This document shows, one piece after another, positions 23,612 to 27,684 of a stretch of DNA of 64,000 nt. Numbering within the stretch: position 1 is the stretch's first letter; each line of letters starts with the position of its first letter. A model generated the notes under the pieces. The model was not told where the DNA came from. It was given only the letters and a program-made list of their open reading frames with translations, and did no database searches. The stretch covers positions 1,240,001 through 1,304,000 of the forward strand of contig NZ_MVDI01000001.1 in assembly GCF_002939305.1 (NCBI RefSeq). Reading direction: 5' to 3'. The translations under genes and the position numbers were made by a program. The stretch is from Chroococcidiopsis sp. TS-821. Its GTDB lineage: Bacteria; Cyanobacteriota; Cyanobacteriia; Cyanobacteriales; Chroococcidiopsidaceae.

Positions 23612-25720
23612 TTAACGCTGAGTCCTGACCCCTGCTGTGAATACCTTGCGTTCTTCCAAATGTGCTTGAATTTCTTGACGCGATCGCCACACTGGACGTA
23701 ATTGCTTTTGCGCAAACAACGATAATTGATCGCCGTTATGCCGCGAATTGGGTTGCGTTGAATTACCATAGCTGTTGAGCGTCATTGCTCGAATCGGATT
23801 GGAAAATTCAATCGCTGCAACATACGAATCGCCACCAATTGATGTAAAAGTACCGTCTTTTTGGGGCGCAAACCAAACTGTGCGAAACACGCCCAAATCG
23901 TCAAAACCGCCATTACCAGGTAACTTTTGCTTTCCGTACTCTAAGCGAAAAACGTCTCCCCAACGAACATTCAATGCACCGTACGCTTGTCTCACTTTAC
24001 CAGCAGCCGTTTCTAACGCTTTAACTGCACTTTGCGGATTGACGAGTCCGTGGGGTGTAGTTAGAGGAGAATCAGCTTGCCAAGGAGTTGCAAACACTTC
24101 GGGAAATTTGACTTCTTGTGTCCACGCCGCAAACAACACTGCGCCTCTACTATCTGCTTCGGTTTGCCGATCCCAAGCTTCTAGAACATCCGCCGCTTGA
24201 CGTGCTAATTCATTACCATATTGACGCGCCGCCGCAATTACATCAGCAACTAGGCGATCGCCCAGCTCCATGCGTGTGGAGTGCTTGTATTGCACCATCT
24301 CCTCAAAAGAAATTTGCGGATCTTCCTCGAGCATCCGTGCGGATCGCTGCGCCCGAAAATGCATGAATTGCGGTGCCATATATGCGGGAAAATTCGCCGG
24401 ATCTAATGCTTGGGGAAACGTTGTCGTCCATGGTGGATCGTTGGCGTTTTGTAACCAACCACTTGCCGGATCGATGACTCGCGGTAAATCATGATAAGGA
24501 TGATATTTTGTCCATAATGTCTTTGAGGTGTCACCAGGAATGACACCCGACCAATACTTGTAGTCTCCTGCACGCCGAATTGGAACTTGACCATTAAACA
24601 GATGCATAATATGACCTGCACGGTCAGCATACATCACGGTAAACATGGGTAATTGCAAGCGTTGCAATGCCGTTTCAAACTGCGCAAGATTTTTTGCCCG
24701 CGCCATATCCCACCATTGTTCTAGTACGCCTGGTTGATCTAACCCGACAACGCGTAACGCCAATGCTTTGTTATCTTGTTGTGATATGACAGGTCCGTGA
24801 ATTGAACGTCGTACTACAAGCGGTTGCGATCGCGCGCTACCATCAGGTTGCTTCACTCTTAGCGTTAGATTTTCCGTTTCAAACGCCTGTACCTTGCCAT
24901 CAAACAGATAGCCACCATCTTGCAGCTGCAATTCGTACGCATCCCAACCGTCGTGCGTGTTAACGGTGTACGTCCATCCCAGATGATTGTTAAATGCGAT
25001 CGCTAGCCCAGGAAACCCGACAAGCGTCGCGCCGTAAATATCTACTTCAGGAGCCTGGATCTGCGCTTCGTACCACAAAAACTGCTCTGACCACAACAAA
25101 TGTGGATTGGCAAGTAGCATAGCATGACCATTTGCCGAACGCGAAGGGGCGATCGCCCACGCATTAGATCCTGAAGCGTGTTTTTCCACCCCTCTAACTC
25201 GCGCCGGATTGACAACAAATGTAAAATACAGCACGCGTTGTAAGTGCGCTAACACATCTTCCGGCTTAACAGGTAACACCACCTCAACATCATCATCAAT
25301 CAAGTCGGGATGTTCCTGCGCATACGCATTAATTCCCGCCGCGAATGCTTCAAGATAACTTTGAAAAGCCGGACTTTGTAACTGATACCAACGACGCGCG
25401 CGATCGGGTACGCCCATTGTCAACACCCAGCGGTCTGAATCTAAATAATCCTCTCCCCAATACTCCGCCGCCCGTCCCCGTGCTTGTCCGTAAAGCCGTA
25501 GCAACAAATCGCCATGACTTTGCATCTGCGCCCACCCAAAAGCCTGAAACGCATCCCGCGCATCTCGAGCAAACACGTGAGGAACTCCATAGGTATCCCA
25601 AAGAATCTCCGTTGCTGTTGGCAAAAGTGCTTTACCATACCCGCCAACCAACAATACAATCATCAATCCTAAGATGGCTAAGCCAAACTCCCACAACTTC
25701 CTAGTAGCTGCGACACGCAA
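23612..25720 (-). CDS. Penicillin-acylase-family (Ntn) amidase
   Basis: A 702-residue Ntn-hydrolase precursor. A signal-anchor (about residues 10-30) is followed by the alpha chain, an autocleavage site in ASGSNAWAI with Gly184/Ser185 (Ser is the expected beta-chain N-terminal nucleophile), and the long beta chain. It hydrolyses amides; characterised cyanobacterial relatives (AiiC type) cleave acyl-homoserine lactones, so quorum quenching or amide scavenging is possible. The start is TTG at 25720, supported by AAGGAGGT (25726-25733) five nt upstream. The gene begins only 35 nt after the second crcB stop on the same strand, so it may share the fluoride-riboswitch transcript. Confidence 0.9.
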   Translation of the reverse strand: MRVAATRKLWEFGLAILGLMIVLLVGGYGKALLPTATEILWDTYGVPHVFARDARDAFQAFGWAQMQSHGDLLLRLYGQARGRAAEYWGEDYLDSDRWVLTMGVPDRARRWYQLQSPAFQSYLEAFAAGINAYAQEHPDLIDDDVEVVLPVKPEDVLAHLQRVLYFTFVVNPARVRGVEKHASGSNAWAIAPSRSANGHAMLLANPHLLWSEQFLWYEAQIQAPEVDIYGATLVGFPGLAIAFNNHLGWTYTVNTHDGWDAYELQLQDGGYLFDGKVQAFETENLTLRVKQPDGSARSQPLVVRRSIHGPVISQQDNKALALRVVGLDQPGVLEQWWDMARAKNLAQFETALQRLQLPMFTVMYADRAGHIMHLFNGQVPIRRAGDYKYWSGVIPGDTSKTLWTKYHPYHDLPRVIDPASGWLQNANDPPWTTTFPQALDPANFPAYMAPQFMHFRAQRSARMLEEDPQISFEEMVQYKHSTRMELGDRLVADVIAAARQYGNELARQAADVLEAWDRQTEADSRGAVLFAAWTQEVKFPEVFATPWQADSPLTTPHGLVNPQSAVKALETAAGKVRQAYGALNVRWGDVFRLEYGKQKLPGNGGFDDLGVFRTVWFAPQKDGTFTSIGGDSYVAAIEFSNPIRAMTLNSYGNSTQPNSRHNGDQLSLFAQKQLRPVWRSRQEIQAHLEERKVFTAGVRTQR

Positions 25721-25725
25721 ACAAC

Positions 25726-25733
25726 ACCTCCTT
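25726..25733 (-). promoter_or_regulatory. Strong Shine-Dalgarno fixing the TTG start of the acylase
   Basis: AAGGAGGT on the minus strand ends five nt before the TTG at 25720-25718. It is one of the best SD matches in the window and decides the start in the absence of an ATG at this position. Confidence 0.75.
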
Positions 25734-25755
25734 TTTTATGTAGTTCTTCGTAATC

Positions 25756-26178
25756 TTAAAACAACCTACGTGCCAAATAGCTGCCGAGTTCTAAGCATAA
25801 TACTCCTAATAACGCAGTACTGATCCAATACAGTAAGGTCATGTTCCAATGCCTAGCTAGCAAGAGTTGTTCTGCATCCAGTTCGTAAGTAGAAAACGTC
25901 GTGTACGACCCGATAAACCCTACCGCAACAATCAGCCGCAAATCGGGTGAAATGAAACTTTGTTCCACAGACAAAGTTGTGAAAAAGCCCATCATCAAAG
26001 CACCGCATAAATTAACAAAAAACGTACCGAACGGAAAAGTCGTTCCCAACCATTGCGTTAAGCCCAATGTCATATAGTAACGGCTCAAAGCTCCGGCGAT
26101 CGCCCCTAGACTGATCGCTATAGGCACTCGTACAATTGAAGCTAAGTGCAATACTCGCCCTTGTCGTCGGTCATTCAT
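25756..26178 (-). CDS. crcB: Fluoride ion channel CrcB/FluC (second copy of a tandem pair)
   Basis: A 140-residue membrane protein with four hydrophobic segments. Family motifs are GALSRYYM near residue 30, the pore asparagine in FFVNLCGALMMGFF, and GSYTTFSTYELD with the phenylalanine-box/sodium-site region. FluC proteins work as dual-topology dimers exporting F- from the cytosol. This copy starts six nt after the stop of the first crcB. Tandem, diverged copies (clearly not identical) are usual where the channel is an obligate heterodimer of oppositely oriented subunits. Expression is probably under the fluoride riboswitch at 26726-26804. Confidence 0.93.
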   Translation of the reverse strand: MNDRRQGRVLHLASIVRVPIAISLGAIAGALSRYYMTLGLTQWLGTTFPFGTFFVNLCGALMMGFFTTLSVEQSFISPDLRLIVAVGFIGSYTTFSTYELDAEQLLLARHWNMTLLYWISTALLGVLCLELGSYLARRLF

Positions 26179-26184
26179 TTTCAG

Positions 26185-26628
26185 CTACCTCACCATTTGC
26201 GCTAAACTAATTCCGATCGCCAGACAAATTCCACCAAGTACCACGCTTCCAGCCCAGTAGAAAAATGCTTTAACGCGATTGCCGCTGTGCCACAAAATTG
26301 AAGTATCAAGCGCATATGTAGAAAATGTCGTGTAAGAGCCAAGAAATCCTGTAGTAATGAGCAGTTGCAGCTTTGATGAAGTGATGACTTGCTCGATGAA
26401 TAATGTTGTAAAAAAGCCCATCAGCAATGCACCAGATAGATTAATCGCCAGCGTGCCATAGGGGAAATTATTTCCCCAGCGCTGTACTAAGTAAAGCATT
26501 AGGTAATATCGGCTTAAGGCACCGGGAATAGCTCCTAAACTGATCGCGATCGCTGTACTGAGCAAAGGATCGTTCTGAGTTAGAATCAGAGCCTGAGTTG
26601 CAGCCAGCGAATCAAGAAGGACAACCAC
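26185..26628 (-). CDS. crcB: Fluoride ion channel CrcB/FluC (first copy of a tandem pair)
   Basis: A 147-residue four-helix membrane protein with GALSRYYLM, LAINLSGALLMGFF (pore Asn) and GSYTTFSTYALD. The GTG at 26628 is the start; no in-frame ATG gives a full first helix. It is the promoter-proximal gene of the crcB-crcB(-acylase) unit, 97 nt downstream of the fluoride riboswitch aptamer. The leader between aptamer and start contains short hairpins (CACAG...CTGTG; GTGAT...ATCAC near the start) that could form the expression platform. Confidence 0.93.
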   Translation of the reverse strand: MVVLLDSLAATQALILTQNDPLLSTAIAISLGAIPGALSRYYLMLYLVQRWGNNFPYGTLAINLSGALLMGFFTTLFIEQVITSSKLQLLITTGFLGSYTTFSTYALDTSILWHSGNRVKAFFYWAGSVVLGGICLAIGISLAQMVR

Positions 26629-26725
26629 ACATTATTCCTAAGAAGTAGATTAACCGTGATTCGCCATCACAGAAAGACTGTGTTGTTTGTACAACTCCTT
26701 CTTTCCAATGAAGCGATTTGGAAAA

Positions 26726-26804
26726 GTAGGAGCTATCAGCCTTATCTGAAAACAAATTATTCTCTATGTTCTCACTAGTGGCGGTTTTGGCAAGCTCCAT
26801 TACC
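26726..26804 (-). promoter_or_regulatory. Fluoride riboswitch (crcB motif)
   Basis: Read on the minus strand, the conserved aptamer parts appear in order. Stem 1 is GGTA...TGCC (from 26804), enclosing AATGGAGCT, then AAAACCGCC. A variable arm (GAGAACA pairing with TGTTTTC) follows, then AGGCTGAT and AGCTCCTAC (ending 26726). GGAGCT (26798-26793) is perfectly complementary to AGCTCC (26734-26729), forming the defining pseudoknot. The order matches the crystal-structure fluoride riboswitch core (GATG, pseudoknot arm, CTGATGG..CCTCTAC). Location upstream of tandem crcB channels makes the call secure. Confidence 0.92.
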
Positions 26805-26862
26805 AATAAGATATGTTATAGCACTGAAGATTTTAGTTGGGACTGACTTTCTAGATTTTACA

Positions 26863-27684
26863 CTAAGCGATCGCATCTCTTACCTTGCGACTTAACGGAA
26901 TACACATCGGCGTTCCCGCAACCGGATCGACAATAATCCGCGAATCTAAGCCAAACACCTCGCGCACAACTTCCTCTGTCATTACGTCTTTAGGAGTTCC
27001 ATGCGCGTAAATTCCTCCTTCTTTCAACGCCACCAAATAATCTGCATAGCGACAAGCTTGATTGAGATCGTGCAGTACCATCACCAAAGTTCTACCCTGC
27101 GTATGATTTAACTCTTGCAACAAGTCTAATACTTCAATTTGGTGCGCCAAGTCCAAAAAAGTCGTTGGTTCATCCAACAGCAAAATTTCTGTATCTTGGG
27201 CTAGTGCCATGGCAATCCAGGCGCGTTGTCGCTGTCCACCCGATAGCGTATCAAGTTCGCGCTCGGCAAATTGAGTCATTCCCGTGATACTCAGCGCCAA
27301 TTCTACCAACCGTTCATCTTCTGGCGACCACTGCTGCAACCAACTTTGATAAGGATACCGCCCGCAAGCTACTAAATCCCGCACGGTTAAGCCTTCTGGT
27401 GCAACGGGTGATTGCGAGAGAATACCTAATTGCTTGGCAACCTCTTTGGTAGATAACTTGAATACATCTACTGCATCGAGATAGACGGCTCCTGATTTTG
27501 GTTTGAGTAATCTTGCTAAACCGCGTAAGAGCGTCGATTTACCACAACCGTTCGCACCCACTAATGCAGTTATTTTCCCTTTTGGTATTGCCAAATCTAA
27601 GTTTTTGATAATTGCTGCTTTGTCGTAAGCAAGTGTGAGGCGGCGAGTTGCGAGTCGATTTGGCGAGGTAGCTTTTACAGTCAT
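26863..27684 (-). CDS. FecE/FepC-type iron-siderophore/cobalamin ABC transporter ATPase
   Basis: A 273-residue ABC ATPase of the FecCDE/BtuD type. The Walker A motif is GANGCGKST, the signature is [17 protein letters not shown], Walker B is ILLLDEPT and the H-loop is VLHDLNQ. The phrase [16 protein letters not shown] is typical of iron-chelate importers. It should pair with FecB/FecCD-type binding protein and permeases, but none is adjacent: the next genes are the riboswitch unit downstream and a divergent glycosyltransferase upstream. It is therefore an orphan subunit whose partners are elsewhere. Confidence 0.9.

Follow-up and report, generated by a model that had tools for sequence, protein, structure and literature searches.

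Adjacency of a fluoride riboswitch-crcB unit and a penicillin-amidase-family gene in one Chroococcidiopsis genome most likely reflects an insertion

The window analyzed here is a 64,000-nucleotide stretch of Chroococcidiopsis sp. TS-821 (contig NZ_MVDI01000001.1, positions 1,240,001 to 1,304,000). On its minus strand, a fluoride riboswitch and two crcB genes, encoding subunits of the fluoride channel Fluc, lie between a gene for a FecE-like ATPase and a gene for an acylase of the penicillin-amidase family. The order is ATPase, 49 nucleotides (nt), aptamer, crcB-1, 6 nt, crcB-2, 35 nt, and acylase. A sequence-only reading of this DNA had described an aptamer with a perfect six-pair pseudoknot, tandem crcB genes six nt apart, and a 35-nt gap with AAAAAAGGAGGTG ahead of the TTG start of the acylase, and all of this held. 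The aptamer exceeds the RF01734 threshold, the six pairs between GGAGCU and AGCUCC can be read by eye, both crcB genes exceed the family cut-offs (PF02537, 32.9 bits; TIGR00494, 80.45 bits), and the TTG opens a frame of 702 amino acids (aa). The parts are known ones, and their arrangement is probably accidental. In window coordinates, the features are as follows.

26863..27684, minus strand: FecE-like ABC transporter ATPase (PF00005; best NCBIfam matches FecE and iron-enterobactin ATPase, both under cut-off)
26814..26862, minus strand: 49-nt stretch from the ATPase stop to the aptamer, with the probable left junction of the insert (comparison with relatives)
26720..26813, minus strand: fluoride riboswitch aptamer RF01734 (cmscan 40.5 bits against a gathering threshold of 34, E 9e-08)
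26691..26736, bounds approximate, minus strand: probable switching hairpin (from RNA folds of the leader, which suggest its role)
26185..26628, minus strand: crcB-1, Fluc subunit of 147 aa, GTG start (PF02537 92.7 bits; TIGR00494 99 bits)
25756..26178, minus strand: crcB-2, Fluc subunit of 140 aa, ATG start (PF02537 84.6 bits; TIGR00494 92.5 bits)
25721..25755, minus strand: 35-nt spacer between crcB-2 and the acylase, with the ribosome-binding site AAAAAAGGAGGTG and, by comparison with empty sites, the probable right junction of the insert
23612..25720, minus strand: penicillin-amidase-family Ntn-hydrolase (the acylase) of 702 aa, TTG start at 25720 (PF01804 459.5 bits)

The window's proteins were placed on the corresponding loci of relatives to compare gene order between the window's genome (G000), two congeners (G067 and G085), and three genomes of another genus of the family (G017, G102, and G119). 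In G085, G017, G102, and G119, the ATPase directly precedes the acylase (a remnant in G119) with no crcB between them, and the PMT, trmB, and phosphoesterase-like genes lie on the other side, as in the window. The ATPase-acylase joins at these empty sites are GATCGCTTAAACGAACC in G085, GATCGCTTAGACGAACC in G017 and G102, and GATCGCTTGAACAAACC in G119. At the filled sites of G000 and G067, GATCGCTTAG precedes the crcB unit and ACGAAGAACT or ACGAACCACA follows it, and the first 33 bases of the window's 49-nt stretch between ATPase and aptamer recur in G067 (28/33 identical). Because ATPase and acylase stand together with no crcB in four relatives, the crcB unit is most simply an insert, and the place of the acylase behind the ATPase most simply predates the fluoride genes. 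We infer the direction of this change from the gene orders and consider it highly probable that a riboswitch-crcB-crcB unit inserted into an older ATPase-acylase pair, leaving the acylase a bystander. On sequence grounds, insertion is the most likely origin of the arrangement, which was seen with every part intact in one genome only.

The second filled site, in G067, is degraded. By eye, its aptamer lacks the 5' half, no Rfam match was found there either, and a program alignment of its leader with that of the window was poor. The acylase is broken, with approximately the first 190 residues gone and stops present. The two crcB genes retain open frames of 141 and 140 aa; loss of the crcB-1 start was considered and rejected, as an in-frame ATG yields the 141-aa frame. 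This crcB pair (L097, 8880-9860) may be expressed without fluoride control, given its truncated aptamer and open frames. A riboswitch-crcB-crcB unit is also present in G102 on another contig, with CrcB proteins 68% and 75% identical, and no acylase match was found within 14 kb of it.

We then compared the coordinates of crcB, riboswitch, and acylase across 195 genomes of the order. crcB was present in 108 genomes, the fluoride riboswitch in 43 (the strict search filters lose some weak matches), and relatives of the acylase (E <= 1e-60) in 68. Forty-nine genomes have both acylase and crcB; a single contig carries both genes within 20 kb of each other only in G000 and G067, and in the other 47 they are farther apart or on different contigs. 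Acylase and riboswitch occur together in 21 genomes and within 20 kb in G000 only. The coordinates of the 19 genomes of the family, inspected by eye, gave the same two cases of adjacency. We also examined a named collection in which an acylase relative was encoded on 91 stretches; we kept 80 loci, with flanks of up to 6 kb, and crcB was found in the flanks of none (0/80). Near acylase relatives at E <= 1e-6, crcB was likewise absent (0/109 loci, those of the window and G067 not among them). A conserved fluoride-acylase operon was rejected on the 2/195 adjacency and the 0/80 named loci with crcB. The sequence-only reading had proposed a fluoride-acylase link and had named adjacency confined to this genome as a result against it. 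Adjacency is nearly so confined (2/195), with the acylase of G067 broken and its aptamer halved, and a link beyond this genome is not supported. No paper linking fluoride with this acylase was found in a literature search, which turned up a single review, on the degradation of pollutants. The locus is a clear example of how weak single-genome gene adjacency is as evidence of function, and comparison of occupied and empty sites among close relatives indicates that the fluoride unit is probably the later arrival.

The closest solved structures to the acylase are cephalosporin/glutaryl-7-ACA acylases (PDB 4e57, E 4.4e-203; also 3s8r and 1keh), with PvdQ next. The match to the former covers residues 32-695 and retains the beta-chain serine (Ser185, at the start of the beta chain of its relatives) and the histidine at beta-23, whereas the gene neighborhood here is cyanobacterial. 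The N-terminal segment is hydrophobic by eye. The acylase shares its superfamily with PvdQ, but its identity as PvdQ is excluded by the equivalog NF051460 (235.6 bits against a cut-off of 950). PvdQ, a pyoverdine-maturing acylase, lies in the pyoverdine siderophore operon (PMC5474475), and the relatives of the acylase studied here are often near siderophore-uptake genes. The nearest named relative is from Gloeocapsopsis crepidinum LEGE 06123. The dN/dS of the window's acylase is 0.08-0.105 against three intact orthologues, compared to 0.099-0.116 among those orthologues, although pairwise values also span time before the insertion; decay of the gene was rejected on these values. No second acylase copy was matched in G000 at E <= 1e-20, whereas each of the five relatives at the locus (G067, G085, G017, G102, and G119) carries one. 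The copies thus show a pattern of reciprocal loss, with G000 keeping only the locus copy and G067 and G119 having a broken locus copy and an apparently whole one elsewhere.

The neighborhood of the acylase's relatives suggests a role in siderophore use. Counting FecC/D, FecE, FecB, or a TonB receptor at E <= 1e-20 in the flanks as an uptake gene, we found one at 30 of the 80 named loci, a thioesterase like that of the window at 20, and either at 44. Among the 55 loci with near-full-length flanks, the counts were 23, 12, and 29, respectively. These loci are not independent: some come from the same genome, G017's own locus is among them, and three belong to proteobacteria. The 55 crcB or riboswitch loci used as a control had none of these genes, a weak control given its total of ~175 kb compared to 997 kb. 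A FecE-like gene adjoins the acylase in four close relatives (G085, G017, G102, and G119), and L167 has a whole uptake operon in a row: receptor, FecB, MFS, acylase, two FecCD, and FecE. L167, L176, L130, L134, L161, L174, and L180 are all cyanobacterial loci in which an acylase relative lies inside or beside a FecBCDE-type or TonB-receptor gene set. The ATPase and acylase that flank the fluoride unit probably belong to iron uptake, and we put at about even chances that the substrate of the acylase is a siderophore or lipopeptide. The repeated, though not universal, association with ferric-siderophore uptake genes provides a testable idea about this substrate; a literature search found no paper describing this acylase in cyanobacterial siderophore loci.

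The riboswitch resembles known crcB-motif (RF01734) riboswitches in its aptamer, its pseudoknot, and its place ahead of fluoride-channel genes, but differs in having an expression platform without a recognizable U-tract terminator. The pseudoknot strands, GGAGCU and AGCUCC, form six perfect pairs by eye. In folds of the leader, AGCUCCU, which includes the 3' pseudoknot strand, can pair with a downstream AGGAGUU instead of forming the pseudoknot, and this alternative hairpin is probably the switching element of the modeled leader. Neither the leader folds nor the terminator scans showed a U-tract after it. Scans of the window found no U-tract terminator in the switch or ahead of the acylase; our own terminator rule, which flagged 13 of 30 other riboswitch loci, is too permissive to rely on. 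Translational control was also considered, and accessibility of the crcB-1 start codon was low in both modeled states of the leader.

A second, stronger fluoride riboswitch (58.8 bits) lies elsewhere in the genome of the window; neither it nor the ATPase gene appears in the sequence-only reading. The protein behind it (L099, 7147-8775) resembles potassium/proton and CPA2 antiporters below NCBIfam cut-offs, and we used it as a query. Of the fluoride-riboswitch loci in the order sample, the 30 with the highest scores (L033-L062) all have a relative of it downstream, with only partial matches in L041 and L048, and none was found in three further crcB-riboswitch loci. The usual fluoride-riboswitch gene in the order sample is a relative of cation/proton antiporters, and crcB is the rarer partner.

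The two CrcB proteins may form a paired channel. As described in PMC3755343, paired Fluc channels are encoded by two homologous genes whose products are antiparallel with opposite charge bias, as in La1/La2 of Lactobacillus acidophilus, and carry the TM3 motif GxxGGxTTFSTFxxE. The host here is a cyanobacterium, and the genes are likewise tandem homologs. The arginine/lysine balance is -1 for crcB-1 and +6 for crcB-2, so the signs are opposite, with a clear bias in crcB-2 and a weak one in crcB-1. In the translations, the motif reads by eye as GFLGSYTTFSTYALD and GFIGSYTTFSTYELD, with the core retained and three substitutions apiece. We also examined 22 further loci, picked for holding crcB pairs or a crcB riboswitch. 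Two CrcB frames were present in 19 and one frame in 3, which gave 20 pairs together with the window. In 18 of the 20, one member had a positive balance and its partner a zero or negative one, the pairs that did not fit being G002 (-2, 0) and G025 (+4, +1). These balances agree with the antiparallel pairing of Fluc subunits described in PMC3755343.

Taken together, we propose that a fluoride-resistance unit, comprising a riboswitch and genes for two halves of a Fluc channel, entered the short spacer between ATPase and acylase. As in known units of this kind, fluoride and magnesium would bind the aptamer and keep the GCUCC strand in the pseudoknot, which would block the alternative hairpin and thereby raise crcB expression. 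The two CrcB proteins would then assemble as an antiparallel, presumably heterodimeric, fluoride channel. The acylase would be stranded downstream and may be partly read from crcB transcripts by accident; it would be an Ntn-hydrolase, exported or anchored in the membrane, that probably acts on a siderophore or other acylated peptide. The sequence-only reading had seen no terminator between crcB-2 and the acylase, and we agree: no terminator-like site was found on the minus strand in 25721-25755, in a scan with little power (6 sites in 4.7 kb compared to 4.9 expected from shuffles). One weak minus-strand site lies inside crcB-2 (26045-26029). With both genes on the same strand, a crcB transcript could physically run on into the acylase in this genome, as that reading had suggested, and from the sequence co-transcription is possible.

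Several points weigh against a bystander acylase beside an inserted unit. Many of the 195 assemblies are fragmented, and some adjacencies could be missed; 50 of the 80 named acylase loci have no siderophore-uptake gene in their flanks. The acylase of the window is intact and constrained and is thus presumably still expressed, with the crcB transcript as one candidate source, and it may matter in G000 because this genome, unlike the five relatives, has no second copy. The gene trees also complicate the history. Four flank genes group G067 with G085 (support 59), but the antiporter gene groups G067 with G000 (support 97), and dating the insertion by tree was abandoned given this conflict. Either a single insertion was accompanied by recombination of the flanks, or the unit entered in the genus ancestor and G085 reverted to the empty site. 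Between G000 and G067, dS is ~0.51 for crcB-1 and ~0.52 for crcB-2, compared to 0.47 for the ATPase and 0.58 for PMT, a similarity suggesting that the unit dates from around the time these two lineages split; dN/dS is 0.09 for crcB-1 and 0.23 for crcB-2. An ancestral crcB unit, cleanly lost in G085, G017, G102, and G119, gains something from the flank genes, which place G067 nearer G085 than G000 and would allow one clean loss within the genus. Nevertheless, the short join is almost identical in the empty sites of the two genera, and an equally precise loss in each is unlikely; we give this history scarcely any chance.

We also considered that insertion of the unit could have been followed by recruitment of the acylase in this lineage, in which case the riboswitch promoter would transcribe it and fluoride would set its level, even if the start was accidental. 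The shared strand, the 35-nt gap with a good ribosome-binding site and no terminator-like site, and an intact acylase under constraint, with no further copy found in the genome, are all consistent with this. However, all three parts are intact in no second genome examined, transcription from the ATPase promoter could pass regardless of fluoride given that the scans found no U-tract terminator in the switch, and a promoter inside crcB-2 is another possible source, so we regard recruitment as unlikely. A narrower version, in which the riboswitch captured a siderophore-processing acylase by insertion and fluoride raises an iron-uptake enzyme, is very unlikely in our view. Selection could keep such an arrangement, and it could be useful because fluoride binds ferric iron. 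The adjacency in this genome would also be expected if the acylase helped the cell to resist fluoride, perhaps through cleavage of a fluorinated amide, and the gene order were a selected fluoride operon. This is barely credible given the absence of crcB from the 80 and 109 acylase loci, the separation of the genes in 47 of the 49 genomes with both, and the broken state of the sole other adjacent acylase, in G067. An insertion that left the acylase a bystander accounts best for the locus.

Close beyond the acylase in the window are a thioesterase and a phosphopantetheinyl transferase. In G085 (L093, 3169-6312), ~3 kb separates Sfp from the acylase, compared to a short gap in the window, and by eye the translations of this segment include two TetR-like regulators, a Rieske-type oxygenase-like protein, and a thioesterase-like protein. 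The window also carries the cyanobacterial small RNA Yfr1 at 2018-2082 on the plus strand (58.4 bits).

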